Below the pieces are notes generated by a model that did not search any database, was not told the DNA's origin, and saw only the letters and a program-made list of their open reading frames with translations. DNA of 64,000 nucleotides from Branchiostoma floridae (lineage: Eukaryota; Chordata; Leptocardii; Amphioxiformes; Branchiostomatidae). Below, in pieces: positions 606-36,888 of this stretch. Location of the stretch: assembly GCF_000003815.2 (NCBI RefSeq), contig NC_049984.1:12581186-12645185 (forward strand), given 5' to 3'. The stretch's first letter is position 1; every line of letters begins with the position of its first letter. A program made the translations under genes and the position numbers.

Positions 606-3600
606 CTATGCTGACTCCTGAGTGAGTTTGTAGGCATACACACTGCCCCTCTGCTGGTAGTGGTGACTGGCCACCTCGTCTCTCTTGCGACGTTTGGCCA
701 CGGGTTCCCTGGGGTCCCTCAGGGTGGGGTCACCGTAACCCCCTCCCCCTGGGGACTGCAGCTGGAAACAGTCCTGGATCAGGAAAAACAGTGACTATGA
801 AACAACTGGATAATATTATTCTCTATTCTTTAAATTTAGTGGGGTCATGTGGTATAACTGTAGGGTGTTTGGCCCAGAACCCAGAGGTCCCGGGTTAACA
901 TCCTGCTGCATACAAATGTATCCTGTGCCCATGGAAAATAGCTGCAGTAATTTCAAAATAATTTGCAAATCTTTAAAAGTCTTGGCATGACCCTTAAGAA
1001 ATGTTTAAGAAAACACTTTAAACAGAGATGATAGAAACATTAGATTCAAATCCTCTTGCAATGACACTCACCCCAGGGTGTAAGTTGACGCTTGATTTGC
1101 CTCCCAGGTTGACAACTCTACCATCGTGATAGATGACCAGGTTCATCCCCCTGGCTCCTGGCTCTCCTCCTAGTATCCAGGTATACCGATATCAGAACAA
1201 GAACATGGCAAAGAACAAATCACATCCTACTCATTTCTACCTGTATAAATGTATTAGAAAGTGTACATAGGAATATACAGCAGTTTCTTTTCGAAAACAC
1301 AGACTCAGGCACCAGGACGTTGTGCTATTTGAGATTTATTTTCTTTCATTACTTTACATTTTGCTTGAATTTGTTTGTTTTGCTCCCATTTTACTTTATT
1401 TTGCTCTATTTCTTTCCCATTTTCTATTTCATTTTGCTCCATTTTGTTCTCATTTTGTTCCATTTTGTATTTTCTGTGCACCCCCAGAAACCAAGAATGT
1501 CCCCTATGAGATACACCACTTACCGTTAAGACCATATGGCTGGAAGGCTCTTCTCTCACTCAGGATGGTGAACATGACTGGCCTCCTGAAGAGGAGTTCC
1601 CTCAGCACACCATCCCCTCCACAGTACTGACCCTTCCCCCCTGTCCCATGGTTCAGGTGGAACCTTCTCAATACCACTGGGTACCTTCGGGGGGACAACA
1701 TACATTTAACATGAAACTAGTGGCATCATGTTAGTGTATATAAAGGGTTAGGGTGTTTGGTCCAGGATCCAGAGGTCCTGGGTTTGAATCTCCTGACATA
1801 CCACAAATGTTGTGTCCTGGGAAAAGACACATACACACAAATTTCCACACTTCACTCAAAATGAGTAGCTATCTTTGATTAGGATAGGAGTCATATAGGA
1901 CATTAAAATTTAAATACAGGTCCCATGTTTGAGGAGAGCCACACCTCAAGCACGTAAAATGAACCTATCACACTTATCAAAAAGAGTAAGGGACCATTCC
2001 GGTGTGAGTGGATCAAATAAATCAGTCCAGACGTACAGCTTGGACAAAATGTACAGCCGCTTTTCATGCTGTCACTCTGCAATATTCCCATAACTGAGGA
2101 TGCACACCAAGACAAACAAACAAACACACCAACTGATTATGATAATTATTTTTCTATTTTCACCGAGGTAATAATACTATGCCTGTCCCTCACCTCCTCT
2201 CCACAATTTCTGGATCAGTGATCCTGGTGTTGGTCATGTGGACATGAACCCCACTTCTGCCATCCCATGTTGGGCCCTGGAGGTCACAGAAGTTATATAT
2301 TAGCACCACAGGTTAATAGTCAAGTCAAAGGTGTTACCATGAATAGTCTCTACTCTGATATTGGCACAATAGTAAATTATATTATTGAACTGTATTTAAA
2401 CTGTAAAATCCAACACAAAAAATTGGACTCACCTTAATTTTCAACTGAACACCATCAGTCAAGGAATGACAGGTGTTCAGTCGAAAATTTGGGTGACTCC
2501 AATTTTTGTGTTGGATATTACAGTTCAACTAGTTCAATAATGACTTTTACCGACACAGATGAACTTCCAAGTTATGTAAATGATATTGAAGTGACTTATA
2601 CATTCTACATTGAATACACTTCATACAAAAAATCGTAATGTAGAAGACCTGAACTACATGATAAAGAAAATAAAGCATGTGAATCATTTGGGCCATGCAG
2701 AAGCAAGCGAAGAGAGCATATCACAGTCAGATGCTGATGGTAGATAACTGCAAATTAAACTGTATTTGGAAGAAAAACAAACTGAATTTCAGCGTAGACT
2801 GTATGAAAATCATTGCTCAGTGAGAGGAAAATTTTGGAGAATTCTTGGTAGAGTATGTTGACTTGATGATAGACTCACAGCCCCATGGCCCCCTGCCACC
2901 GTTTCCACATATCCACTGCTGTCCTCACCAAAGCTGGTCACATTCATGCAACCCTGGATATCAAGAGGGTAAAGCACAAACACCACTTTGACATTGTCCA
3001 ACTCACCGCCCCATGTCCTCCCGCAACTGTCTCATAGTAGCCGACATCCTTGTCACCAAATGCAATGTTATTCATGCAGCCCTGCAATAGTCAGGTGAAA
3101 CAAGTTATCTATGAGAGAAAAATCTCTCAGTCTACATGTTACGTATGTCTGACTTTTTCCAGTCCAGCGGTAAGCAATTCTGCCTCTGGACCAAAAGATT
3201 GGGAGTTGGAATCCCTTCTGTTGCTCACCTGACATACACTCTACTTCAAAGGGTCACAGTCCTTAGGCCAGGACATTATATGCAGTGAACCACTCTTCAT
3301 TGTGCTTGTCAAAAATAGCTAGACTAGGGAATTTCCCAAGTACAATGAACCTGTAACTACTGTAACTTAACATATAGCATTTGCCTTCTCCATAATGTCC
3401 AGTGGAGGAATTTTGCTATTCAGTGAGCTAAACTGGTTCCAGGTCACTTTCACCTTTTTTCACTTTGTTTCCCAACACTAATACATGGGTCAAAAAGATC
3501 GATTTACAAAATACAGCCTTGTTGAGCAATGTCAGATTAACATGTATTTAGTACATGTAGTAGCCTATCAGTATCAGTATCAGCTGGAACACTTAACGGT

Positions 3601-6600
3601 GAATTGAAATAACTTGCTATGTCTCATATAAAAATGTCAAGCAGACCCTCCTGTTACTGCACCTGCGAGGCAGCACAGATGTGGAAGGCCTTCAGGATGA
3701 CGTCCACCACTCTCTGGCTGGTCAGCACGTTCCCTCCCACCACAGCAGCAGTGTCAGACGGGTTCAGGATGCAGTTGGGTGGCATCTGGATCTTAACTGG
3801 CTTCAAACAACCCTGTGTGTGAGGGAGATTTTAGAGCAAAGTTATTTTTCTGAAGACATGCTCCTCTTCACATCATGGTAAATGTTTTAATGAAAAAATC
3901 ACTGTAAAAATTTAAATATTTGAGGGGATTTGATTTCATAGAAAAAACAAAATGGAGTGTTTCCTATCATGTTCTGAAGGAAGAGAATGTTGGAAATAAT
4001 GGTAACTTTTGGATCTTGTCATTGAAGAAGGAGTTTACCGAAAAACATAGAAGAGATTCTTACACTATACAGGTAAATCACAAGACTGCTGTGAACACCT
4101 GTCTTACCTGGTTGAGTGGAATGTCATGTGCCACCATACACCTGAGGCAGTAGATGAGGGCAGATGACGTGATGGCTCGGGGTGCGTTGGTGTTCCCAAA
4201 CACCTCAGGACCCGTCCCACTGAAGTCAAACACTGCCGTTCCCTGGAAGGGTACAGAGAAAAATGTTCAACAAACTTTCTACAGGTTGAGGAGAAAGCAG
4301 TGTGGATATTTGATTAGAGTAGGAATCAAATCACTCTTCTCTTAGCTATCTACATGTAATTCTACCATTGTGTTCCTCTGTGAAAAATGAGGAATTGTAA
4401 AGTGCATCTTGGTGCACAAGTGCATGAATATTGCAGAGTGGAAACATGTAAGGAAGACGTGGTGGAATAGGATACTTAAAAAATTGGAAGTATAGTTTGG
4501 CTCAAGTCTTTTGGTGTCATAGCTGGGAGTGCCAGTACAGGACGACTCATGGCTGCGCCCATACAGTAACATTAGGTCATTGGGGTACCCAGTTAGAGCT
4601 TGTCACAACAATGTTCAGCCATCAGAGTCATAAGTATCAGGGTCTTAAATTTCATATAGCCTGCCACATAGTGAAGGAGTTGAGTTTAGCCTTGTTTTAT
4701 CTGTGCCATTCCCACATGATCTTTGTTGCACCTCTATCATGTGACTATGAGACTCTCATCCCAATCTGCACTTATCCTCTACATTACTTGTTCCCACCTT
4801 CTTTTCATCAATGCTGACGTTCAGCACCAGGGGAGTGCCATCATCCATGTGGTCCTCAGCAAACAGCTGCGTGGTGCCAGTCCTGGCCTTAGTCTCCTGG
4901 GCAATCTCCTTCAGCATGTCCCGCACAGCCACCTCAGCATTGTTCTGTAAAAGTAGGGAACTACAAATATCAGCAACTACCGTCCCACACAGCCACCTCA
5001 GCATTGTTCTGTAACATTATGGAATTAGAAATATCAGCAACTTCCATCCTGCACAGCCACCTCAGCATTGTTCTGTAACAGTAAGGAACTACAAATATCA
5101 GCAACTACCGTCCCACACAGCCACCTCAGCATTGTTCTGTAACATTATGGAATTAGAAATATCAGCAACTGTGGACAGATTTGTGCTTAAGTGCAATTCA
5201 TGTCTGGTAAAATTGTAAGCAGGTGACATAACATGTACGGGTAACATGTAACATGATGTTGTTATTAAGGCCCACTATACATTACGCTTTTCGCGTCAGC
5301 GGTGAAATTTCCCGCTGTCGGGACGCCGCTATCGGGACTTCTTTACACACCGCCCGGAAATCTGGCAGGACACCCGCGGTGCTTAGGGCATGCGGTAGTG
5401 ACCTTACCTGACCCACTGTGACATAAGGCGCGAATCAGATATATGGCGGGAGAGCCGCCACCACATTTGTTGCTCGCCGTGTTTCAGATGTTTTCTTTAC
5501 GTGTCTCATTTGCGTTATGTCCAACATGAGGCAGGGAGCAAGGCTAGCGCGCAGGAGACGCCTGAGATACCGGGAGATGTTGATGGGACGTCGCCCAGCT
5601 AGAATTCACCCTGCTTACCCCACTGCCCTTGCTTTGGCACGAGGTGGCGATCCTATCAACCGGACGATTTGGAGTTACGTAAGGTTACCGGCGACCTTTT
5701 GGCAGAAGTTTTTCCAGGGCACACTGTGTGATGCAGAATTCTACAAATTAGCTTTATGCTAATCGCTGAACCCTGACCTCCCGCTAACGCCAGCCCGACG
5801 AGTTCTCTTTATACAAAGTTTGAAGTTGTCGGGGACTCCCGCTGGGCCTACGGGCGTACACTTCGGAGTGGACGGGAGAAAATTTGAAGATAGCGGGACT
5901 ACGTTAACGGGAACTCTCTTTACACGGGGCTCCCGCTAACGCAGTCCCGCTAATGCCAGTCCCGCTAACGCAAAAAGCGTAATGTAAAGTGGGCCTTAGT
6001 GTTATTTATTCCAGGAAGCTATGTTTCTATATTCTTGAATTATTTCAAGATTACACCTTTAAAATTTAGCAACTTAGTAGTACTGAACAGATGACTAGTA
6101 ATCCATGACGGTACTGCAGCCTGGCTTGTAGACCAGAATCCAAAGATGCAATTGCCGATGGACAGTGGAAATTATAGCTTTATGATTTGAAATACTTGTA
6201 TAATCATCTCATACACAACTTTCCACACTCCTACATACAGTGACCTAGCTACAGCAGTCTACATCTACATCTACAATAAGAAACCCCCAAGTAACCCCAA
6301 CAGTGGCAAAGTAGGGGGTGGGGTGGGCTGGTCTCCAGCCTGGCGCAGAAGGACCCAACTGTGTGGGCTGTCACAACTGTACCAGGCTGAGCGTTCCACT
6401 CTGGTACAGGCAAACATACTCATCTGTAGGTATCCCAAGTTGGCTTAAACTCACCTGTATGTAAGTATCCCATGTATGCCTGTACTCATTATCTGAATGT
6501 AGCCTGTATGTAAGTCTGTACTCGCCTGTATGTATCCCATGTAAGCCTGCACCACATCCAGCCCATAAGCATCGATCAGCTCCTGCACCAGTTTGATGCC

Positions 6601-9600
6601 CTTCTGGTTGGCTGCCACCTGAGCCTGCAGGTCCGCCAGGTTGTCATGGAGATTCCTGGTGCCTGAGCTGCCCGGGATCAGCCCTGGGGCCATCAGCCTC
6701 TCTGTAAGGGCTGGCAGAGACAGAAGGAATGGAAAGTTTATCAATGTGTGGTTATGGTTAGAGTTCCACACAAAGTTCCAGTCCTACTCCAGTCACCCAT
6801 AATGTTGAAGTGGCCTTCAGGTCTTATGAGTTTTGAGTAAGTGAGATGCCCTTCATCCCTTCATCTTTAAACCTTGGTTACACCATTTGATATAAAAAAT
6901 AGAAAAGGAATTCAACAGAATCCTAAAATAGACACTAGTCTATATATAGGTATTGAATAGCATGAGCAAAGTATAGCATATCAAATTTCATTTTACTTTT
7001 CAGTCACAAACCTTCCTGCATGTATTTCCCATTCTCTATCAGCTTGAAGGACTTGAACACTGCTCCTTCCTCACTGAGAGACTTTGAGTGTGCAGGCATG
7101 GAGCCAGGTGTAATGCCACCTATATCTGCATGGTGCCCTCGTGATGCCACAAAGAAGACAGGTCTCTCTTCTCCCTTGTAGAAAACCTGAGGAGATAGAT
7201 GAGAACAATCTTTCTGCACTTACCCAAATTTTGAAACAAAATACATCGTGATCAGCTGATAAAAAATTTGTAATCAGAAGGAGGAAGATCTTCTGACTGA
7301 AATGGACATATTATTAAAATCATGATTGTTAAAATACATAATATAGACTTACTGGTGTGATAACCGTGAAGTCAGGTAGATGACTCCCTCCTGCAGAAGG
7401 GTGGTTACTTAAGATGACATCACCTTGATGGATGTCTTCTCCTAACTGCCTCAACTGTATATAAGACAGTGTGGAAAGAACTGTGTATATAATTTCAGGA
7501 AATAATTCTTTATGTTAAATTAAACGCACTTGACAGTATGATCATGTTATGTAAAAATCATATCAATATTAATAAATTTTAATATTAATGTAAGAATGGG
7601 TTGTGTAATCAAGAATCAAGCTACAATGTAGCTTGATTACACAGGTCTAATCCTACAATTCCCAGAAGGGTATGGGGGAAAGTGTTAACCCTGACCTGGT
7701 ACTGGACAGTTTCCTGCATGGCCCCCAGGTGAACAGGGATGTGAGGTGCATTGGCCACCAGTCCACCGTCTGGGCCAAATAGCGCACAGGAGAAGTCAAG
7801 TCTCTCCTGAAATGGGTTAATACATGATAAGGAGCTGCACTTTTAATGCAGGAATGTTGCTTCCACAAACTTTATAACACTTGTTAGTAGTTTTTCATGC
7901 ATTATAATTCCTAAGACATGTCAACTGTTCTCCCATTACCTTGATGTTGGTGGATATTGCAGTTCTTTGGAGGATTCTACATGGAAGAAACATCCAACAT
8001 AAGTCAAATGAGTCAGTGCACTTTACACAAGTGAAGTTTAAGAATTGTTTAGAATAATTTGTGGCTGAGGAAGAAATGTCTATACCAGATTCATTCATTA
8101 TCTAAAATAAGTAACAAATAAATAAAATAAAGATAAAAATGGATAGTTTTCCTGGGAAGAATCAACTGTGTAAGAACAAGAACGATAGAACTTACCTGCC
8201 CATCTGTTCAGCAATACTCATGAACCGATGGGAGAAGATCGAGAGCTGCAGACAAAAATTGATACAGTTTTCTTTAAGTAACATTTTGAAAATGTACCAT
8301 TGATTCAATACACTAATCAATGCCAATGTAAAATATATGTTTGTTTGGTGGTTATTAAAATGGCAAGGTGGTCTTAAGGTTAGGGTTGTTGGAATGCAAA
8401 GATTCTGGTTTTAAATTCCTAGCAGGCCTGATGTTGTGCCCTTAGAAAAAGGTGCTAACCTGTATGGCGTCCAGTCCTGTTCCTATTCTCTTCCTCCCAG
8501 CAGTGCCGACCGATATCTTCACATCCCCCTCTGGAGTGATGCTGGCACTGCAGTCAGGCTCCACTATGATGGTACTAAAGACCAGAAGACAGAAATCTTC
8601 TTTTGAAACCATTTGAAAGAGTCAAGATGGCTTCCTTCTCTAACCTAAGATGAATTTGTTACTGTCATCATTACAATACTTTTAAAATAAATTAGATTTT
8701 AAAACCACTCAAAACCTTAACTGTGAAAGAAGAAGCATATTCAAATGAAAGTCGATCAGTGATGCTAATTGACAATTTACAAAGATTGCATACTCTAGTT
8801 CCCTACACAAGACAAAGCACTTATCAACAATATTTAGATCAGTCCTCTATAATCTAAGTTGAAATGGCCCAAAACCCATGGCCTGAACAGAAGTGTGATG
8901 TCATTTAACATGTCATTGTCATTAGGGCTCATTGGTCATCCATGAACCTTTGACCTGTTGATAACATCACACTTCTGTCCAGATCACGTGACACAAGCTT
9001 CTGGTCATTTCAACATGAGAATAATCAGAGGACTTGTTGGTAATCCTTTAATTATAAACTTTAGGAAAAGCATTATTGAGATTTTGCACCTGTTTTTCTC
9101 AATAAGAATGGCTGGCCCATGGATGTCATGGTCACATGACAGATCATCCAGCATGTATACATTGGTGTCATGGTAACGGTTGTCAAAGTAACACTTGGTC
9201 ACCTGTAAAATGACATTACAAAATGATTGTATACACTATTGCAGGGCTCTAAATACTGGGTGCACCCAAAGTTGGACCTGTGCATCCAATGTTTTTCTGT
9301 GGGTGCACAGGGTGCACCCAAATATTTTCATAGGCTTATGTATGTAAAGATATCAAAGTATACTAGTATACATCATATTCTTGACATCTAAGTGTTAGAA
9401 AGATTATAAAATGTCTGTCATGGTACTTGTTTAAGAATTTGATAGCTTGCTAAAGTTTTATTATTACGTTATTACTTAAATTTAAGTAGCACCCGATTTT
9501 TCAAGCTGGGTGCACCAGTGCACCTAATCCCAAAAATGAATTTCGAGCCCTGCTATACTATAGTAAGATTTTATCAAGAGCTGAGTCAGCAATTTTTTGC

Positions 9601-12600
9601 TTTCACTCCTTCTTTTCATCAACTTTCTTCTGCCACCTATTCATGTTACCTCCTAATAAAAATCATTTTCCCATTTCCAGTTCCTTTACCAACTCTTCTC
9701 ATTTTGTAGACTAGCCATATACTGTCAAATTGTGGATTGTAGATCTGAACATTAATGCACTTAAGCCAGGGTTTGATCCATCTGTCTCGCTGTGACTACA
9801 CACACTCTATCATGAATACATTCCCCATTAAAACCATGTGCATCTCACCAGTTCCACCCTGGGTGTTTGACCAGAGGGCCGAATCACGTGGTGGTCACGT
9901 ATCCCCGTCTGACCCACCCCGCGTACGCGGATGTCATCAACTTTGATTGGTCGTCCAGGGATTGTGAACCCAAACTCACGCATGTACCTGTGAGACACAC
10001 AAAAGAAAGAAAAGTGAACGTGATCTTCAACCAGTTTAGCTCAAATGAACTCAATGAACAGTCTATTTTCTTCTCACTGATCATGCAACAGAAAACAATC
10101 AAAGTTATTATATACAGGTATATTGCAGCAGGGATTCCTCTGGCACAGTGGATCAAGGTTTAACATCCTGTCCTGCTGAAGGACTGCAAATTTTTCCAGT
10201 AGCGAGCATGTCGGGTAAGGGACAACAGTTGGGATTCAAACCCACGACTTCTTGGTCCAGAGGTAGGGTCACCAACCAGTAAATTACACACGCTACTAAT
10301 GACAAGGGGTTTCCTCAGTGAAATTGCAATGAAAATCAAAGGTCGTACATGTATGGCAATGAGGGATTTTGACATGAAAAAAATAAGATTGTCACAACTT
10401 TAATCCAGTTCAAGGGAACATAGACTTTATAAGCCTGGAATCTCCACCTAAGCAATCATACATTGTTCTACTGAAGCCATTTTAAATTTATACCTGTAAG
10501 GAGTAAACATTCAGTGCCCTTTAGTGAAACAACCAGTCTAGAATAAGAAAAAAATACTTTAAGTTAAGTTTAATGAGTCTAGTAGGCTTTCAGTACCTGT
10601 CTGTGAAGGACTTCTCAAAGTCTCCCTCCCCACATGTGTCAGTACTTGGTGGATATCCATGGGAGGAGCACATCAGGGCACAGTCTGTCCTGTCATACCT
10701 CAGGTGCAGGAACGCTTCCGTCTGGATCTGAGCCCTGAAATTAGAGACCAAATATTTCTGTAGGGGAAAGCTTCTGAATGGGGGAGACTCCTTTGTGGGT
10801 GAGACTTTTGCATGGGAAACATTTCTGCACAGGGATATTCTTTTGTATGGGAGACCATTCTGAATGGAGAATGTTTTAATTTGCATAGTAGCATCAAGTA
10901 AAATCAGAGAGTCTGCATTCTACACCAGGACGGTAATTTGTTGAACAAAAAAATTTGACCATTCCAACATCATTGGTCAAAAAGGATCTCAAAATCTTAT
11001 CTGATGATGGAATAGAATGTTCTCCTTTTCCATGAAAATATGTTTCATCACCAATTAACTCTTGTCCTGCATACAATTACATCAATTTGACTTTCACCGT
11101 GTCATTTTAGCAAATCAAGTCAATTGAATCAAATTCTGTCTGAAAAGAAGAATACTTACTCTGTGAATCCTTCAGTCTTGAGCTCCTTAATGCAGGTTTG
11201 CCTGAGTGCTGCTATTCTCTGTTCAAGCAGAGAAAAGTTGTCTAAAAGGAAACATTTGATAGACAGAATTAATCATTTAAGTCCCTTGTGTTGAGGTGGA
11301 AACAACAATGAGTTTCTGCATTTACACATGTCTTTGTAGATTTTGAAAATTTTCAAAATACATTGAATTTCTCTTCTCTTAAGGACTCTTTTGTGAAAGT
11401 GATTTCAAACTAGTTTCATAGCTCACTGAAGTGCTCATAATTCTTCCACTGGTTGTGACAGAAAAGACTCATGCTATGTAGTACTAACAATATTTACAGG
11501 TCAATTTAGAGGAGAAATTTCCTTTGCACTTTTTGACAACTACAATGAACAGTGGACCACAGCTTAATGTCCTGTCCTAAGGACATTGAGCTGTGTACAG
11601 AAGCATGCATGTCGGGTCAGCAACAATAGCCAGGATTCAAACTTCTAACCTCTTGATCCAGAGGAAGTGTTAATAAATACTGGGCTACATGTATGTACAC
11701 ATGTATGCTACATTGTGTGTATGTTTCATATGTAGTTCCCTGCCATTCAAATTTCACACAGGTCCTTGTAGACTTCAAATCTAAGTCTAAACATTCACTT
11801 CAATCTATTAACTTCTGCACCTTTACTATAGTTGACAGCACATGGTTCCTGCGCCTCGTGAACCACATCAGCCAGGGCCATGCCATAGGCAGACAGGATA
11901 CCAGCATACCTGCAGGTACAGGGAAATGGTACTGTAAATCAGCTTACTTTTCTTTTGTTTTGTGGTAGCAGGAAGATGGAGATTTTGCTGTGTTTTAAAT
12001 TTCTGGTTGAAACAAATCAGTACAGTGGACATATACAAGTAAGGGAGATGTACTGTGTCTAGGTCATGAACAATCACGAAAACTACGGAAATGAAATCAC
12101 TGCAAAACTTTCAAGATTTATCAATAGTTTAAAGCAGGAAAAAAAAGGCAAAGAGGCATTTAACAGTATCATTGTGGCTGATGTCATGGATACATACAGG
12201 GCACACAAGTAACAGTACCAAATGTAGTCAGACGTTACGTCCTCACCTGTGGATGAAGACAGTGGACATGCCCAGAGACTTGGCGATGGCACAAGCATGC
12301 TGTCCTCCTGCACCCCCGAAACAGGCCAGGACGTGCTGAGAGGTGTCATGACCTTTGGCCTATGAGGATTTACAAAATTTAGTTCATCAGACATTATTTT
12401 ACATTATAATAATCATTACCTTGCCATTATGTTTTAGATGCTGTTTATGTGTTGGCTGGGGGTATCTAACAGTTTGTAACTAACAAAACAAGTACTGGGC
12501 AAGTTATCAATGAATGCTCATGCTATTGTAGGTGTGTACAAGTACAATTTAGGTGTTGGGAAAACAAAGGTCACCTTACGGTTCTGCAGTGGAACTTCTG

Positions 12601-15600
12601 GTTTTGATATCTCCTGTTCAGGACATGCTATAGTTGTGATTTTTTAGTGGAATATAGCTCTTGGACAGGTCGAAGACTTTGGATTGGCGTTTGTACAAGT
12701 AGATGTGTATCTTCTCTTTCATGATTCTACTGAACAGTGTAACCTACAATATGTGATCAACCCACCTGTGTCAGAGCTCTGATTGGTCGACACATGGCCT
12801 CATTGGCCACCTGTATGTACCCCATGGCAATCTCCTCCATTGTCATTGGCTCTTTCTTTGTGCCATCTGCATCTGATTGGCTAGCCTGGAAGTCATTGAC
12901 CTTGGAAAAAACAAAGATGAAGAACAAAACTTAATCCTACTTGGATAAACTTTATTTGCAAACTCAAGCCTACAGGATAAAAGCAAGTGGATTATTAGAT
13001 ATGATAACATAGAGCAGATACAAAATGTCTAGTCTATAGATCTATCTGATGTTATTATGAAGATGAAGATGCAATTCAAGGTGAAAGAGGAAATGTTCTG
13101 TACAGGTGATAAAGTAACAGACATCTGAGTAAGACCATTAACAATGGAGTGGCATACTCAGATAATCAAGGGTTAAAACAGGTAAAGTAATTTCCTACCT
13201 CTTGTGTAAGTTTTGAGAAGGCAGCCATGGTTGCAGGTTTGTCCAATGGCTGGTCTTCCTTCTCCCCAAAGATGGAAGGAAAATACCTGCAATGAAGTAT
13301 AATATTTAAGAATCACAGTTTTTATAAAAAAAATTCACACTAGATATTGTCCTCTGATATGATTTGCAATTTATCTTCCTGTTGAAAAGAATACATTTTG
13401 GCATTAACAACATATTGAAAATGCAAATTTATGAGATTTCAGTTAAATTAAAGATGGTATGAGCTTACTCTGGTAGGAGTCTCCCCAAACACAAGTTGGC
13501 ATCAGTTACTGTCAGGGGGCCACCTATTCCACAAAACAGAAACTCAATAAATGTTTGCACACTAAATTCTACCAAGACATAGGATGCAAGACAAAGTGAC
13601 ATGTATTCAGTAGAAATGTCATTTGAAAAGACACTGCCAAAAAATAAAGTTTGGCAGTAATCCCCAAACCTTACCATGTTTATAGCCACAATTCTTATAG
13701 CCCTGATAGAATAGGAAAGGAAAGGACAGAAAGTTGTGTTATACGTTATACAATGTGAAAAGCCTTACCCACAGCCAATACAAAATACATGTACCTTGGG
13801 AAAACTGGGCTGAGGTTTCTATTTTGTCGGTTTGGCCTCTAACCTGCTGCAGCTGTCAGCCAATCAGAGAATTGTCTAAATGTTTCTTTAATAAATAAAG
13901 CTGATTCTCTGACAGCTGGTTAGAGGCCATGCCAGCAACAACAGTGGAAACCTCAGCCCAGTTTTGCAGAGCCTCTCCAGTAAATTGTATATGCTGTGGG
14001 TGGGCCTTTGCTTAGAAGAATGAAAAGAAGCACCCACCTTTCTTGTAGCAGACAGGCCCAGGGTGTGCCCCTGCCGACTCTGGTCCAACAACAAACAGCC
14101 CTGAGCGGAAGAACAGCCGGGAGCCCCCACCTGCTGCTACTGTGTTGATGTCAAGCTGGGGAAGTAGAAATCGTTCAGACAAAAGCTTTCAGTAACAACT
14201 AATAATTGAAATGTTGTGAGGATATCTATTATCATGTTGGTTGTAATCCTACACAAAAGGTCGCAAGTGTCTGGTTGTGTCTGGGCATGTAAAAATGCAT
14301 GTCAATACCAATATGCATCTCCATTTTCCTAACTTGAAGTGTTGCCGGTCCTAAATTTACTGTTGCTACATGTATGTCTGCCCATGCAGATGCTTGTACA
14401 TGTGTATATAGTGGAAGGTCCTCTGTCTTACCTGTGGAGCTTGTATAGTCACCCCAGCTGTAGTTGTCTCAAACACATGTTCATATTCACCTGCATACCT
14501 GCTCACATCTGTAGATGTACCTGGGAAAGGTAAGGCAAGTGAAAACGTAGAAGCAATTAATAGTTTTTAGTTTGTACCACTCATTTCTCCAAGAAGTAGA
14601 TGTTAAAAAGATAAATCTGTTTAATTGTAATTCCGTTGCATTAATATTTGCGATTCTTTGGTACCAACATGCAATTTGCATTACATATACCCTATAGTTT
14701 TATTAGGAAACACTGTTATCTTATATTCTGTGGTGCTGGCAGCCCATTTTCACGCCAGGGTCTGGGCATGACTAGAAATGAGTCACATCGTCTTGGTTGG
14801 GGACTTAAACATTAGCAAGCTTCATGTATGAGAGAGATAACACCTGCAGGTAAAATTGCCTATATGTAAACAGTTATCAAGAAGAATACAGGTGATGCGG
14901 TGTGCTTGGCTAAAAGGCGCGAGCTGTAGCAAAGCTGTATTGCACTATCAGCTAACAAAACGCTTTTTTACTTACCTCCCATGTCAAAGCCAATGACTGG
15001 CTGTTGAGTTTCCTGGTCAAAGGTTGTCATGCCATAACCAACCACTCCTCCAGCTGGGCCGGACAGGATCGCGTGTGAGCCATTGAATCTGGGGAATGTG
15101 GAGGAACGGGAATATGGTGGAAACAAAACAACACAAGTAGTTGTTTTAGTCATTGAGGTTCATCACATCTGTGGAAGGATTGGCATACCAGGTTACTATC
15201 ACCTTTTATAGATGTCAACCCAGAGACCAAGCTGTAAGGTATATTGATTCATGGAGTTAACAAGGAAGGCAACGTGTATAAGAATATCTTTAAGTTATTA
15301 ATGTTACTGTTACAACATAACAGAATCCCAATTATTGCATTGATCTGAAACTTCAATTTTCAAATTTCAAAATTAATTTCACAATTTTTGAGACTCCCAT
15401 AATAATAGCCAAAATGTTTGGGTTAGCTCACTTGTCCATGGGGGTGAGACCTCCATCTGACTGCATGAACAGGACCTGTGTTTTCTCCAGACCTCCTTGG
15501 AAACCACTCCCAAAACTTGCAAGGTACCTCTTTATGTGGGGAGTCAAGTAAGCATCTGCACAAGCTGCAAGAAAACTCAAACAGTAAATACCAGTACATG

Positions 15601-18600
15601 TTTTACTTGAGTCAGTTTGCCTGTGTGGATGTTGCCATGAGTCTCTCAACTGTGACACCACTGAACCCGAGCCAAACCATACTTCCAAATTTCCAAGTAT
15701 CCTATTACACCACTTCTACCTTACATGCTGCCACGATGCAATATTCACATAACTGTACACTCACACCAAGGCAAAGAAACAAGGAAAGAAACAAACACAC
15801 ACCAATTGGTTACAAAATCTCAGTCTATTTTCACATACAATGACTTTCACCGTAAGATCAAGTCATTAAATTTTTAAAGGATGTGGATCCAGAAGAAGTC
15901 ATTAACATAGAATCAAATATAGAACAGTGCACTATTGGTAAGGGCTTGCTATCTCCTGACCTGTGTAACCTCTGGGTACAATACGGAACATGGGCATGAC
16001 TTCACTGGACAGGGACACCTGGTGGAACCCCATCTCCCTGGCCAGCTGGCCCACCTTCTGCTCGTGGCCTGCAAAACTGTAAAAAGATATGGTTATCAGA
16101 CTTTACACATAGAAGAATGTAAATAAAACGGCAATATTGTAGGGCTAACCTTGAATTAAAAGAATTGATTCATTGTTGGGAGAAATTTTGACTGTGTCAT
16201 ATAACATTGGAAGAATTAGAATATGGTCAAGAATTTTCAATTCAAATGGCATGTCTGGAACACCAGATGTCAAAACTGGGAGTTCCACTGCAGTACTGTA
16301 GAAAGTCACTAGGAGTCTCATTATCAAAGTTGATCTTTGTTTTCCTGACCTCAACTCACCTTCCAAAAATCATATGGATCCATTCAAGGATTCTCAAGTT
16401 ATACTATCCACAAACACACAAATGGCATTGAAAACATAGTAAGCTTGGTGAAGGTAAAACATAAAAACACATCCCTCCTTAACTTACGTGTAAGAGTGCA
16501 TGAGGACCACAGCCAAGCTCCTGATGCCTCTATCCAGTATAGCCTGTAGGTCTGCACGTAGCTGTACCTCATCCAGCTGTTCCCACACATGTAACTGTCA
16601 AGAAACACACCTGTCACTCAACTGTCAAGAAAGCTGTATATCATCCAACTATGCTATCAGCTTCACCCACACACTGAGAGCATACTCCACATAATCTACT
16701 GTGTAAGTGAGGCTAACAGCAGTCGCTCAGTGGTTGCAGTATCTATGAAGTGTATGTAATCACACCTTCTCTCCTGTTGTTCCAGTGACAGTCTGTAAGT
16801 CGGCAGGTTTGTCCAGCTGACAGGACTCCTGCTCCAGGATAACACGCTCCTTCACTTCAACCACCTCCTCATACAGGACATCTGGGGTCACAATTTCCTG
16901 AAACAAAAAAGTTTTTATGTCACAAGAAGTTCAAGAATATCAGAGGTCACAGATCCTAATTCAACAAGCATATATTTCAACCTCTGACAGAGGTTAAAAT
17001 ATTCTAAAACATCAGGTAATAATGTAAGTATGGACCATAATGATACTCTTTTCAGCACCATGGACAAGGCTAACATGGATGTCTAATTTGATAGACTGAC
17101 ATACATGTAGGGCTTAGATATGGGAGTAGGAGGCAGAAGATAGAACAGGATGTTTGGTCTAATACACAGAGATCCTGTGTCCCTTTTATTGCTCTGATGT
17201 AGTGCTCTTGGGAAAGGCACTTCAATGATGTAAAAATGAGTACCAAGCTTCAATTAGGTACCGAATCCGTATTGACATGTACTATCTTCCATAAACCTGT
17301 AGTGTTATGCCACGAGGCAATTTACCAGGTATGCAGTACAAACAACAAAAATTATACTTTTTTTTTACGAATAAATGACTTTGTCAGTTTTTACACGATA
17401 GACCTTACCAGATCAAAGATATTTGGCCGTGACTGGTTGCCGATGTGCAGCAGGTCCTGGAAGCCTTGAGTGATGACCAGCGCCATGCGCTCACCTTTCC
17501 TCTCCAGTAGGGCATTCGTGGCTACCGTTGTGCCCATACGGATCCAGCCAATCAGAGACGGGTCCAGTGGCTGGTCAGCTGGCATGGGGATACCTGTTTC
17601 CTAATGGAGTAGGGTGAGATGGAATAACAAAATGTGTAATGATACTTTGTAATGATATTGTATTCCTATGACTTAAAAGTTGTCAATGTTAATGTTTCAA
17701 TGACGATATTCATTAATGCTTGCTAACTTATGAAAATTGGATCGATGGCCTCACAGATTGTGGTATGGTAGGTAATAAAAAATGCTTGGGATATACATGA
17801 TAATCAATTTACAGCTATGTATTCAGCTGGTGTGTTATGATACCGGGTCAAATAGACACCTCTTAGCTGACTACACTCCTTGGCCAGTTTAGTAGTACTA
17901 TATTATGCCATCGTAGGATCTGCTTGGAGATTAGGTAAAGAGGACAAGGGAGTGGGGGGAAAAGTAGGTCATAGGTCAAACTGTCTGGAAGGAGTTGGAG
18001 AGAGAGAGTGTTGTGAGTAGAGGAGAAATCTACTCAGAACATAAATGGAGAGATTTCAAAGAGCTGTGGGATGCACCAGTGTGTGTCTTGAATCTCTTTA
18101 AATGAATTCAAAGGAACTTGCAATGAACTTGCAATTAATATCAGCAGCTTGATGATACAGAATGATGTTGTTGTTAAGTTATGTTTTAAGTTAAATACTG
18201 CACTATTAATAACCGTTGTTTATAAAAAAAATCTTCAAGATAAGTGATTCGTATCCCACAGGAATATGCTTCTAAAACTGGTAGTTCATTTTATCAAGCC
18301 TTGCCTCAGCTCAGAACAATGAAATTGCTTTGTCATGGCAAACTCCTGAAGATTTTAGGTCACCATGACTTGGCAAAAGTTAATGCCTGAAAGAAATAAC
18401 TGAGCATTTAAAAAAAGGACGGTTAACTTGTCTATGTTTAATACACCAGTCACTACTTTCATGAATATTGTTGGCCTGCAATGCTGCAGTACGTGACAAA
18501 ACTGATAGGGGGTCAAAATCTCCATGTTTCATGGCGACCTCAAATTATATACACCAAAATACCAGAATCCATGCAGAATTAAGTCGTGATTTATAACGTT

Positions 18601-27731: not shown

Positions 27732-30700
27732 TCACGTGGGTGCAGCGACCAGCCCAGCCGGCCCCTGTCCCAAGGCTTGCCCCCCTACTGTACTCTCAAG
27801 TGGTTTGAACCCAAGCTCTTCCGTCGGGACGCCGAACGCTCGTAGCTTGGCCTCGTATGTTCGCAACAGATCATTGTGAGCCTGTGAAAGAAACAAAGAA
27901 CATATCAAGATACAGAACTATGCAACATATTGAGTTAAATACACTGAAATTAAGATATTGACGATAGCGTATGGAATGTATGGCATTTTGTTACAGGGTA
28001 AAAAACAGATGACTGTTTTCCAAAAGAGTACAAACAATAAGAATAAAGTGAAAAGCCTACAGTTACAGCTTTCAAAAGGAGACAGCTTTGCAGTAGTACA
28101 GTAAATCTTGACACTTGCAGTGGTTTTATTTTCATGGCTTTTGTGGTGACCTCTACCCCAAAAATTCATCACACCATGAATATGTCTTCCTTGTATGACT
28201 ACAGTAATACAGAATTGTTTTCACTGAATTTAAAGTGCTGCAAAAGTAAATTGATTTGGACCATTGCTACAACAGGTGAAAACAATAGAGCGTACTGACC
28301 TTGCAGACGCGTGCCAGCTCGTACTGAAGATCCTTGATGGCGCTGTTCTTGGAGTCCAGAACGTCCTCCAGTTTCCTGGTCACCACGGTCAGCGCGGTCG
28401 GGTCCAGGTTGGACGCAGACAGGACCTCGTTCAGCTGTGCCTCCTTCTTCTCAAGAGTGTCGGCCAGGGCACCAAGCTTCTTCTCCAGGAGCAGGTTCTT
28501 GAAGTTGGACTTCTGCTGCACCTCGTGGATGGCCTTCACAAACTTACCATACAGCTCATCTCGCTCACCCTCAACCTGGTATTGGAATAAGATGGCATCT
28601 CTGTTAGTAAATAAAACTTGCGAACAAGCTCTAAGTGAGAAGCCCACAGTGACCTTACTGTCTGCATGTAGCCATGAGTCATCCTGGCTGTCAAATACAA
28701 CATCATTGAACAACATATGTACACCAAATGGCTGCAATATCTCTGATTGTACACAGGCAACCAGGTGAAATCAACTGTACAATAAATACAGTACCTGTCA
28801 TCCTGGCTTTAAGTTTGGATTCACATGACACAATAACAAAGTTAAGGTTGAACCGTTAAAGATAATTGAAAACAATAGTTACCTTTGCAAATCTTTGCTT
28901 CAGCACCTCATGTTCCCATTCTAGTGCCTTCATCTCCTCATCCATGACTCTCAGTCTTGCCTTGGCACTCTGCATGGCAGGAAACAAAAATATCATCAGT
29001 ACACCACTCGGTTTGAAAAATGTACATGATAGTGTCCCTCCTTATATATTGTTCTTTATTATCCACACTGTTCCAGATAGAAACATTATCAAATCTGTAG
29101 TTAAAATAGATGTCTAATATACTCACTGCGAGTGAAGCCTTGTCTTTGTCATAGTTGGCCAGTTGTTTGCGTAGGTCTTCCACCTCGTCCCGTGCTCTCT
29201 GCAGAGGTTCTGTGAGTCGCTTGTTCTCCGCCATGATTTCGTTCATCTGTTTTTCCATCCTCTCTTCCTTCTTCTTCATCTCCTCAACTTGCTCCTGTTG
29301 GAATCATAGAAAGACTCCATGGTTAGAAAAGAACCAGATAAAAAAGACACTAGACAAATCAAATAGGAGACATACTTACACCAACTACTAAGTGCCATTT
29401 CAATTTGGAATCACATCAAGACAAACACTCACATCAAGACAAACAAATGTACCAATGTAACTGATTACAATACCTCCATTTTTAACAAGCTCCATATTAG
29501 TTATTACACAGTTTTTAAGAACATGATTAAAAATCTTAATCACACATGCTATGGTTAATCAACAGTACCAGTAACATGAATACACTTAGAGGAAGGTCTG
29601 ACCTTGAGTGAGTTGATGAGAGCCAAGTTGTTCAGCGTGATATCGTTGTAGTAGTTCTTGATATCACTGAAGGCCTTCTCATGGTTCTTCATGAGTGTGT
29701 TGATTTGTCCGTTCTTCCTCTCCTCGATCTCATGAATCTCTGTTTTTCTCCTGAGTTCCAGCTCCTCTCGTAACATCCGCATCTTCTTCTCATACTTGGC
29801 TTCGATCTCCCGAGCCTCTCGTTCAAAGTCTTGTCTTAGTTCTGTGATGGCCTCATCGTGTTTCTGAGTAAACAAGAATAAAAGCATTCAGTTTTGTACC
29901 ATAAGAGTTTTCTCACTAATGGTTCTAACTGCACATGTGCAGCAAAATGCATGGTTTGTATTATGTTAAAGAAGGTATCTAACTTGGAAACAGTCGCAGT
30001 CGAGACCAGGCTTAATACATCACCAGTGTTTTACTTATTATGTTTCAAGGGCCTTCATCTTGACATATTATCACATAATTCATATTGCTTTCCATTTGGA
30101 ACAATGAATCCTTAAATTTCTTCTATCTCATACAACACATAAAAGTTACTGATAAAATGAATGAATGAACTGATAATCTCACATTCCTTTGTTTAAATTT
30201 AAGTTTTTAAAGGACAATAATGTAACTTACAATTTTCAAGTTCTTGATGATGTCTTCATGTGCAAGCTCCTGTTCCTTTAACTCCACCTTCAGGGAGCGT
30301 TTTTCCGAGCGCAGGTCTCCCTCGTTACCCCGATGGTCGTCCTGGGCCAGTTTCAGGGCGACTGCGCTCTCTGCCTTCAGCTCGGAGATGTTGTTCTGGT
30401 GTTCATACAGGAGATGCTTCACCTTCTGTTTGTAAACCTGTAGAAAAAGCAAGGATGATGTTGTACTCAGTTGTGTCTTTTTAGTTGAACGTCAGATTGC
30501 CCAGAAGTCAACAATGGAGTGCCGGGTAGTGTTAAGATTAAATCTCACTTATAGCACCCTGCCCAACATCTGGTGGGGAGTGGCCAGTTACACCCCCGGA
30601 CAGCAGAGTATGTGTTACACAGACTAGTTAGTGTTCACTGCCCTAGTTTTGCCAACACCCCATGAATACGACACTTCAATGAAATTGTCCCCAAAACCTC

Positions 30701-33373: not shown

Positions 33374-36300
33374 ATGGACACAACAAATCGTAAGAAGGAG
33401 GACCTGCGTCGTGCCGTGCAGAAACGGTACCAGCATCTCATCCACGAGGAGGCCACAGGAGGAGCGAACAACAGCGCTCATGTGGCCAAGTATGGAGTCT
33501 CTCTGAGACAGGACCTGCTCAGGCTGGCTAAGGAGTATCTGGCCTGTATTGAGCACAAGGAAAAATTTATCTTAGTTCCATTTGGTGACTTGGTTATTCC
33601 AGCACTAGCTTACTTTGAAGAAGAGAAAGTGGGATTCAAGAAGATTGCTGAAGTGTTCAGGAAGCTTGAACAATTTGGGACAAATCTGATACTCTATCCC
33701 TGGCGTCAAGAGTTTAAGAAAATTAAGGTAGGTAACTTTAACATTACATAGTATTTGTAGGTTTATGGTTCTAGATGAGCATGTGCAGCAACATTGTGGA
33801 CAATATCATCATCAGATATGTCAAAGTTTAAGGTCCCTGTGACAAAGAAAAACATGTCAAGACATGTACTTAACATGGTCTAAGTAAGGGGTCTTCACCT
33901 TTTCATTTCATTTCATTTATTTTGCTTTGAGGTATTTCACAACATCTGTTCTGATAATGGATAAAAGTCAGAAGCACTGCATGCAAAGCTTTTATCACTC
34001 CTTGGCAGTATATTTTTTTTACTTAATCATTGATTTGGTTGGTTTATTGATTGCTTGTTGATCTGTATTGGATACATGCAATGTCAACTTCACAACCTTT
34101 GTACTTATTGTTTCAGACCTACACAGCAGTGTACTGGTGCCAGGTCAATGCTGTGCTGCCCCAGGCAGCTGAGACTGTGTTGGCACTGCTGGGATACAGC
34201 AAGAAAAATAATGTTTTTGTTCTACAGAGGGTGCCTCCAGAGGAAAAGGTTTGAAAATAGAATGTTTGTTGTCTATTTATATACTACAAGTTCATGTTTG
34301 GCTTTAAGCAATTTGTTGGTTGGCTGAAGTTAAAAATGTTAGAGAAATAAGACTGTCAGAAAGAAAATAACTTGCATGCAGATTCATAAAATTCAAAAAT
34401 TGCCTAAGCCCAGACAGATTGAGAAGTACATGTATTAAAATCAAGGAAGCAATATTCTATTTTGAGACGACCTCAACAAGATTTGTTCAACTTTAGAGCT
34501 CAAACATATGTTCCATATTTTAATGCAGGTATTTGTTCCTCAAGTTCTGCAAATATTTTAATCAGATCCACTTTTTCCAAACAGTTGCTGACTGTAGCAG
34601 TAGACCTTTTCCTGTGCCAAGCTGAGAGTCTGGTCATGGAGGATGTGTACAATGAGATAAGCAGCAAAGGTTTCTTACCCAGGCAGGTGGTGCAGGCAAG
34701 AGAGCTCATGGTATGCGTTATACAAACATTTTACCTTTGCCAAAAAGGTTATGTTTTTGATAGTGTTACAGTTTGGTGTATGTGCATTCATGATTGCATG
34801 TATGCGGTTGAACAGCACACCTTAAGAAGCTATGGATGGATTGTCAAGAAATTTGATATGAGGGTCTGCATGCTCTTTTACGTAAGGCGTAGGCAGCCAA
34901 TTTTATTTCCCGTAATTCGTAGGGAAAACCATCTTATCTACGTAATTCGTAGCGAGGCGACCAAATTTAGCGTAATTGCCTTCCTTGATTTAGCGTAATA
35001 CGTAGGGGGTTCTTTTAAATTCAGCGTAAATCGTTGTCGGAACTCCCCATGCAGACCCTCTGATATGGTTAACCTAGGTCTTACCCTATGAAAGAAGTAT
35101 TAGATTTTGGCACCCATGGCATCTTTCCTTGGTACTGAAGCAGAACTTCCAGTTTTGCATCTCACAAATAACAAATATAACCTATACTGAAGCATGGGAA
35201 ATGTTCATATGGGAACTAGGAGAACAGCACAGAAGGAAAACAAGCAATACTGGTACATGTTATTATATAATCTAACAAATGTGAATGTTGCAAAGTCACA
35301 ATACTCAAATCATCCCACATATTACGTAGTACGTGTGCATTATAGAAGAAAAATTGATTTTTCACTGTTTCTTTAAATTCTGCAGGTTGGGGATCGTATT
35401 GAATGTGCAAATTTCATGAAGAAGCAGATGAGGGCAGACGGCTCACCACAGTTGTCAAAAGTCAGGGGAGAAAGCCTCAAGGTCACACACGACATCTCAG
35501 GCAGCAGCGGCAGACACAGGGACAGCGAAGTAGCCACAAGAGAAAAGTCAGACAGAAGTAGTAGCCGCGATATTCCCCAGTCAAAGACTGTTCCGTCAAG
35601 AACTCGAGGATCTACCAAGAGTGTGTATACAGGCACCTCTGGGTATTCTAGTTTGGGATCAAGAGCCCAGGGGTCAACGACACTAAGTCATCTGGAAAAG
35701 AGAGATGGAGAGAAACCGGGAAGCTGGGATGACAAATGGACAACAAAACGTGACTTGGGGGTGGACGGAGCCGAAGATTTCATGAATGAGACACAGATTA
35801 GACAGTCCTTTGACATCAGGTACCCTCCGGATGACATCCACGGTCTCCCAACAACTCATGATGAACACATCATGGCCAGTATGGCTGAGATCTTTGGGCC
35901 GGAAGACGAAGAAAGTCAGGGACAGACAAGCAAGACGATGCACGTCATGCCAGATAAAACAGGAAATGTACCGTACAGAGCAGAGCTGTACAAGTCTGAC
36001 TACAACAGATATCTGCTAGATGTAGCCAGCTCAAGCAAAGGTCACACAGCAGGTTCAGTGCCACAGCCTCCCCCTGTACACTACCCCCCACATGGGATAG
36101 CTGTGAGCCCCCCTCCCCACACCCGCCCCCTAGGAGGGGACTTACTTCATGACCTTCAAACTGACAACATCAGGGGTTATGAGGTTACGCCAATGTCGAA
36201 TCAGCTAAACCGTTTCCCAGCTGGGCTCCCGGGATTACCTGATGGGGAAACAGCATGGCTGCCCAGGGAAAGCAGCTGGCAAACAAAGGACATGTTGTCA

Positions 36301-36888
36301 TCGTCTAGACCATATCAAGGTCGGGAAGCTTCTGTCCACCCTGTGCCAGGAAAAACAGCTGAAGACGTAGCAGACGGTCTTGGACAACCAAGGAGACGGA
36401 GCAGTCTGTACGACAATGTAGATGGCCAAGAAGGTGCAACAACAGGCCTTCCCTCTTCAAATGGCAAAACAAGTCCTCAGTTGGTTCTCAATCATGTGAA
36501 GTCTTCCAGCCCTGACAAGATTCAAAGCAGGCCAAAAAACAGCCATTGGACTTGTTGGTATTGTAATGCAAGCAATGAGCTCACTACCCATCTGTGTGTG
36601 CGATGTGGCACGAACAACGTAGGCGGTCAAAGCAACAGCAGTTCCAGGCAGAATGTAAAACAGGGGCAAGGAAGGAACTGGTCCTGCTATTTCTGCACTA
36701 CGATCAACTCCGCAAGCAGCATTGTTTGTGTGGAGTGCGGGAAAAGCCGATTTCCCGGAGCAGAAGCTCAACCTTTGAATATCGGTGGTCGCCAGTGTCA
36801 AGCCTGCACTTTTGTGAATCACCCGTCTGCAACTAAATGCTCAGTATGCAATGAGCTGCTAACATCTGCATCTGGCACCTGCATTTAA
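33374..36888 (+). CDS. SPATA2: SPATA2 / tamozhennic-like PUB-domain protein with three RanBP2-type zinc fingers
   Basis: SPATA2 bridges the deubiquitinase CYLD to the linear-ubiquitin ligase LUBAC in TNF and innate signalling. Exons 33374-33727, 34117-34248, 34585-34710, 35386-36888, all phase 0, give 704 residues (human SPATA2 about 520). The N-terminal 200 residues match the PUB region: FRKLEQFGTNLILYPWRQEF followed by KTYTA, and LLGYSKKN. A long Ser/Pro-rich linker follows. Near residue 546 is SSLYDNVD, a candidate PUB-interacting motif. The C-terminus has three Cys4 fingers starting at residues 592 (WTCWYC), 636 (WSCYFC) and 675 (CQAC). The third contains CTFVNHP. Drosophila tamo also carries such a finger; I do not recall three fingers of this type in human SPATA2. 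The family call is firm, orthology to SPATA2 versus SPATA2L is not resolved and should predate their split. Confidence 0.87.
34861..35059. mobile_element. hAT-like MITE (199 bp) with 8-bp target duplication
   Basis: Ends AGGGTCTGCATG and CATGCAGACCCT are perfectly inverted 12-mers. They are flanked by TTGATATG (34853-34860) and CTGATATG (35060-35067), an 8-bp target duplication with one difference, as expected for hAT. The interior repeats GTAATTCGTAG-type motifs about six times. It lies in intron 3 of the SPATA2-like gene. Confidence 0.85.

Follow-up and report, generated by a model that had tools for sequence, protein, structure and literature searches.

Two homologous, probably mutually exclusive exons in the 5-oxoprolinase gene of Branchiostoma floridae

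The OPLAH gene and its exon pair

We have analyzed a 64-kb window of the Branchiostoma floridae genome, the window being the whole stretch of 64,000 nucleotides. It contains, on the minus strand, a gene coding for 5-oxoprolinase (OPLAH). When a bacterial 5-oxoprolinase-type protein (L004) is aligned to the genome, about 31 exons are recovered between positions 16894 and 732, and the stop codon is found at 606. L004 is 71% identical to OPLAH over 119 residues around the exon pair described below. In L004 and L005 the HyuA and HyuB halves belong to one gene with a long single open frame, which the exons match in order. The aligner has also produced a spurious exon of 8 nt, which has been set aside, the two introns beside it are counted among the 31 intron lengths given below. 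The main features are the following:

606..16894, minus strand: OPLAH gene, traced part, about 31 exons plus exon B; traced no further than 16894.
3663..3812, minus strand: OPLAH exon upstream of the pair, which ends ...AASQ, phase 0.
3007..3081, minus strand: exon A, 75 nt, with the canonical motif; acceptor TTGCAG, donor GCG/GTGAGT (the slash marks the splice junction).
2954..3006, minus strand: spacer of 53 nt from the donor of A to the acceptor of B, the proposed steric block.
2970, minus strand: best candidate branch-point A (TTTAC, yTnAy), spacer position 37, a consensus match only.
2879..2953, minus strand: exon B, 75 nt, with N5V and Y16V; acceptor ATCCAG, weaker donor GCT/GTGAGT.
2194..2276, minus strand: OPLAH exon downstream of the pair, which starts GPTWDG..., phase 0.

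The spliced C-terminus containing exon A (338 residues) matches the Pfam domain Hydantoinase_B with E = 4e-110, and this domain extends over the exon pair. Both HyuA and HyuB halves are present in one gene with Hydantoinase_B over the pair, as expected for a 5-oxoprolinase. The 513-Mb assembly contains 8 matches to Hydantoinase_B at E up to 1. All of them lie within the OPLAH gene and no second locus is listed, therefore there is probably a single OPLAH gene in this genome.

Exons A and B have the same length and phase (75 nt, 0/0), with AG and GT borders. Either copy can be joined in frame with its neighbours, the upstream exon which ends at 3663 and the downstream exon which begins at 2276. 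Since both copies are in phase 0/0, the frame is kept with A alone, B alone, both or none. The two copies are identical at 45 of 75 nucleotides and 17 of 25 amino acids: B differs from A at residues 5, 6, 7, 10–13 and 16, the other 17 are kept. This is not a chance similarity, a possibility which we reject: Peptide A finds exon B with E = 6e-10, the next match in the 64-kb window having E = 2.8. When peptide B is the query, the best two among the matches listed for the window are B itself and A. A query of 53 residues (exon A and the next exon) gives three matches in the 513-Mb assembly, which are A, B and the next exon. No third copy has been seen by peptide search of the 64-kb window, where a search of Rfam also gives 0 matches. 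Mutually exclusive exons which arose by tandem duplication show this same arrangement of neighbouring homologous copies, with lengths and phases that are compatible. The original prediction had described this pair, with its splice sites, phases, identity and 53-nt gap, and we have reproduced all its coordinates.

Several other features of the gene and the window may be mentioned. A 64-nt unit is tandemly repeated at 4919–5170 (minus strand), upstream of the exon at 4798–4944. The unit holds a 3' splice site and the first coding bases, so that four acceptors ACAG/AACAATGCTGAGG are found, with starts at 5136, 5072, 5008 and 4944. From the three upstream acceptors (5136, 5072 and 5008) the frame reaches a stop at codon 13. 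The exon at 6710–6526 (minus strand) ends in CAG/GCGAGT: This is apparently the start of a GC-AG intron, the one leading to the repeated acceptors. Nested inverted repeats are found at 2372–2550, in the intron which follows exon B, with arms of 36 and 29 nt which are 89–90% complementary. They look like a small palindromic transposable element. Another OPLAH intron has inverted arms of 37 nt (92%) at 5266–5998, separated by 659 nt, and TCCCGCTAACGC-like words recur there. This is probably a short inverted-repeat transposon. Outside OPLAH, an open frame at 28270–28770 (minus strand) has a GAS microtubule-binding domain (E 4e-32), and another at 35377–36885 (plus strand) has a RanBP-type zinc finger (E 6e-7; a double zinc ribbon, with E 3e-5, is below the cut-off). 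They belong to other genes of the window.

Age of the duplication and selection on exon B

The 30 nucleotide differences between A and B are distributed as 6, 6 and 18 among codon positions 1, 2 and 3. Third positions are saturated, and we reject a fresh duplication. The spacer and the introns adjoining the pair are similar to each other only at chance level.

Selection has been modelled with one common neutral time, because both copies share genome and age, and with separate omegas for A and B. The best common omega for the pair, obtained on a grid, is 0.12, with synonymous change saturated. When sequences are simulated with B neutral and A constrained, at least 17 identical amino acids together with at least 18 third-position differences are found in at most 1 of 20,000 runs, in each of 18 settings. 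A value of omega_B = 1 is rejected without outgroup for five values of omega_A (p 0.003–0.010; fitted on a time grid), and also with each of four bacterial outgroups (p 0.002–0.013), the chi-square on 25 codons being approximate. Some estimates of time and omega run to extreme values because the 25 codons are saturated (with L004 the outgroup branch is degenerate), and only the tests have been used.

Simulations and tests both reject a neutral relic since the duplication. Exon B is an old exon which stayed coding, under past purifying selection. Protein-level constraint is found in both copies, as in mutually exclusive exons.

Splicing of the pair

Splice sites have been scored with a matrix which was applied to the same sites used to build it, one doubtful donor included. 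By this measure the acceptor of B lies above 26 of the 29 other OPLAH acceptors, and its donor below 27 of the 28 other donors. Because of this weak donor, B may be the minor exon and A the default. Another reading goes further: B would have been used in the past, but would now be dead or nearly unused, with A alone being spliced. Besides the weak donor GCT/GTGAGT, the alteration of two residues which are nearly invariant in relatives speaks for it. Nevertheless, exon B has no stop or frameshift, its AG and GT are intact and its acceptor is strong. Since neutrality is rejected, only a fairly recent death of B would fit. We consider this reading unlikely.

The A of the candidate branch point TTTAC is 36 nt away from the donor of A, and 16 nt remain between it and exon B. 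For a second yTnAy match the distance from this donor is 45 nt, but only 7 nt separate it from exon B, which we judge to be too close to the exon. Both are candidates by consensus match, and in both cases the distance from the donor is below the limit of about 50 nt for steric interference. According to PMC6692369, in the E1A pre-mRNA assembly of the early complex is permitted at 50 nt and abolished at 35 nt.

The roughly 60 other introns which we have measured are all longer than the spacer. The shortest of the other OPLAH introns has 133 nt (31 lengths). We have also estimated 29 introns from 28 chaperonin exon pairs and one aldehyde-dehydrogenase exon pair, the shortest having about 107 nt; this survey is small and based on exon matches, and very short introns read through inside one match could escape it. 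Of 60 rows for chaperonin it includes 54, of 14 rows for aldehyde dehydrogenase 2, and only neighbours within 12 profile positions have been considered. The 6 chaperonin rows left out include a pair on C6, whose members are about 93 bases apart (less than 90 after correction) inside one open frame of 551 residues, and a pair on C7, inside one frame of 637 residues. Both pairs have been taken as intronless.

Short introns may nevertheless be functional. Flies routinely splice introns near 55–60 nt, which counts against a steric model. Human introns of 43, 49 and 56 nt, which also count against it, are spliced according to PMC4463651. If introns of 43–56 nt can be spliced, A and B might be included together as an insertion of 25 residues, with the frame kept, as both are 75 nt long and in phase 0. 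Such a protein would have two copies of a core segment which is present once in the aligned relatives, and the spacer is shorter than any other intron we have measured: We regard double inclusion as highly improbable.

Exclusive choice might also depend on competing RNA structures or on regulators instead of the short spacer, a mechanism known for other genes (PMC7969005). We have compared the pairing of the spacer with each flanking intron with 200 simple shuffles of the spacer. The values are -32.3 for the upstream intron (shuffles -31.2, s.d. 3.5) and -24.4 for the downstream intron (shuffles -27.8, s.d. 3.0), so that the spacer pairs with neither of them better than chance, in contrast to what a Dscam-type mechanism would lead us to expect. 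On the other hand, the upstream and downstream introns pair with each other beyond simple shuffles (-204 vs. -184, s.d. 8). This explanation appears quite unlikely.

The joining of A to B is probably blocked, as judged from the size of the spacer. A mutually exclusive choice of A or B is the best reading and a likely one, and the anatomy of the pair points to the steric model as the best supported mechanism. The original prediction of exclusive exons with a steric block gains from the constraint on B, from the 53-nt gap with 36 nt to the branch-point match, and from finding no comparably short intron; exclusivity as such is still inferred.

Residues changed by exon B

Exon A has Asn at position 5 and Tyr at position 16, while exon B has Val at both. 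It had been predicted that A keeps the motifs GCMNN and YYET, which we take to be also those of human OPLAH, and that B has GCMNV and YVET. This is indeed what we find, and most of the prokaryotic relatives we have checked have the motif of A. Position 5 is N in 84 of 88 prokaryotic homologues, position 16 is Y in 81, and 80 have both residues, in a sample which favours the residues of A because it was gathered with isoform A. The sample derives from 97 loci. We have removed L001–L003, L026 and L027, from the genome under study, and L033, which is the same place as L005. Among the remaining 91, L011 and L012 gave nothing and L014 lacks residues at both positions, 5 as well as 16, which leaves the 88. 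From 100 listed matches 70 were taken, L033 included, and 98 of the 395 genomes searched had a match. Twenty loci are from plasmids: 10 were picked among 40 listed of 825 records, and 10 among 60 listed of 620.

A smaller set shows N5 and Y16 in 16 of 16 OPLAH-type proteins, while among six distant HyuB proteins Y16 is found in none and N5 in one. The two classes are separated by overall identity (at least 40% vs. at most 33.3%), a split of our own. The presence of both signature sites among the eight changes of B is not significant alone (P 0.09).

The YVET motif is found in 4 of the 88 relatives (L087–L090), which belong to a bacterial HyuB group, L090 having also Ile at position 5. Val at position 16 therefore has natural precedents. 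Two members of the YVET group, L098 and L099, sit in two-gene HyuA/HyuB pairs, for which the best NCBIfam models are the caprolactamase subunits CapA/CapB, well below the cut-off. Relatives with Val at position 16 are probably not 5-oxoprolinases.

We have compared the exon with CapB (6yra chain B). Residues 2, 5, 15 and 18 align with Ala365, Ile368, Val386 and Ser389 when two conserved blocks are read without gaps. Identity is low in this alignment, and the ungapped register is our own reading, because HMMER placed gaps in this segment. The residue letters and numbers given for CapB in PMC8453981 agree with the aligned sequence. According to the same paper, A365, I368, V386 and S389 are among the residues flanking the pocket beside the metal, and the metal ligands are Asp41, His99, Asp102 and His124. 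The positions of these ligands lie far upstream of the exon pair, in other exons. Should the segment fold as a symmetric hairpin, residue 5 would lie opposite residue 16. Structure prediction for the HyuB half of L004, with L005 in the alignment, gives a mean pLDDT of 35 and supports no claim.

A retuned pocket in the B isoform is plausible. It had been suggested originally that the two isoforms have different active-region surfaces, or that B gives an inactive or regulatory form. The first suggestion has gained support, as four residues of the segment fall on the CapB pocket and B changes one of them, residue 5, although the position in the pocket is derived from the alignment. The second one is somewhat disfavoured. 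B might still have a regulatory role or no catalytic activity, for instance as a dominant-negative subunit of an oligomer, instead of acting on a new substrate: N5 and Y16 hardly vary among the relatives sampled, and Asn5 aligns with a pocket residue of CapB. However, B retains the other conserved residues of the segment, the metal ligands, by CapB position, are coded elsewhere, and Y16V is natural in the YVET relatives, one of which has Ile at position 5. An inactive or regulatory B is, in our opinion, doubtful.

Interpretation and comparison with known systems

Our preferred explanation is an ancient tandem exon duplication in a single OPLAH gene, kept as sterically exclusive exons, with a retuned pocket in B, to which we assign a probability of roughly 0.6. 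Exclusivity, steric mechanism, pocket position and functional consequence are inferred. According to this explanation, tandem duplication of one OPLAH exon would have given A and B, both kept coding. With 53 nt between them, U1 could not engage the donor of A while U2 engages the branch point of B, and A would not be joined to B. Each transcript would then go from the upstream exon to A or B, and from there to the exon at 2276. Isoform A would be the ordinary 5-oxoprolinase, and isoform B a folded enzyme with Val in place of Asn5 and Tyr16 in the pocket of its HyuB half. These changes would most likely retune substrate choice or activity, not abolish it. Going one step further, we may tentatively suggest that B provides a second OPLAH with a more hydrophobic pocket, as in bacterial caprolactamase-like HyuB proteins: It might use ATP to hydrolyse another lactam or a cyclic amide. 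A single gene would then code for this enzyme as well as for the 5-oxoprolinase of the glutathione cycle, and a second core metabolic enzyme would have a substrate switch like that of coq-2.

Among known systems, helminth coq-2, described in PMC7434440, comes nearest to the OPLAH pair. Its exons 6a and 6e, found in helminths, annelids and molluscs, also belong to a metabolic enzyme and are tandem, homologous and mutually exclusive. Use of the alternative exon exchanges two residues, strictly conserved elsewhere and located near the substrates, which resembles the change of two nearly invariant residues by exon B. The two cases differ in that RNA, genetic and metabolite data prove the substrate switch of coq-2, whose exon is found across phyla, while the OPLAH pair is a sequence observation in one genome and concerns another enzyme. 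The same paper gives cytochrome P450 CYP4F3 as a case in which splice choice switches substrate specificity, as may be so in OPLAH, and its authors call such pocket-altering splice switches rare.

Exons 4a and 4b of OGDH (PMC7969005) also come from an old duplication in a metabolic enzyme, and their exclusivity is ascribed to a branch point lying too near the 5' splice site. Nevertheless, OGDH has distant branch points, in an intron of 118–131 nt in birds and mammals, and the choice switches calcium sensitivity. In OPLAH it is the spacer itself which is short, with 53 nt, the distance of the best branch-point match from the acceptor being an ordinary one. A short distance from donor to branch point also excludes joining in the alpha-tropomyosin exons (Smith and Nadal-Ginard 1989, as cited in later papers), as proposed here. 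This differs from OPLAH in being a structural protein, with an unusual branch-point location according to the title of that paper. CapB and other HyuB-type lactam hydrolases have a homologous half of the fold, in which the same segment lines the pocket (PMC8453981). In our alignment CapB is aliphatic at the positions equivalent to 5 and 16 of the exon (Ile368 and Leu387). Unlike OPLAH, these enzymes are bacterial and have two subunits, with no splicing.

In a literature search which covers few subscription papers, we have found no paper joining 5-oxoprolinase with mutually exclusive exons. Among the matches listed for 5-oxoprolinase, alternative splicing and exon, none deals with OPLAH splicing, as judged by title and start of abstract, and the same is true of OPLAH for amphioxus and mutually exclusive exons. 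Human tandem duplicated exons have been surveyed in PMC9741552, and a term search of its main text does not find OPLAH. The OPLAH pair is thus probably a new case of mutually exclusive exons, and we have found no earlier report of such exons for this gene.

If our explanation is correct, an enzyme of the glutathione cycle would join the small number of enzymes whose catalytic pocket is altered by the choice of an exon. N5 and Y16 would be natural residues which may decide the activity or the substrate of OPLAH. It would also suggest that lancelets regulate 5-oxoproline turnover through splicing.
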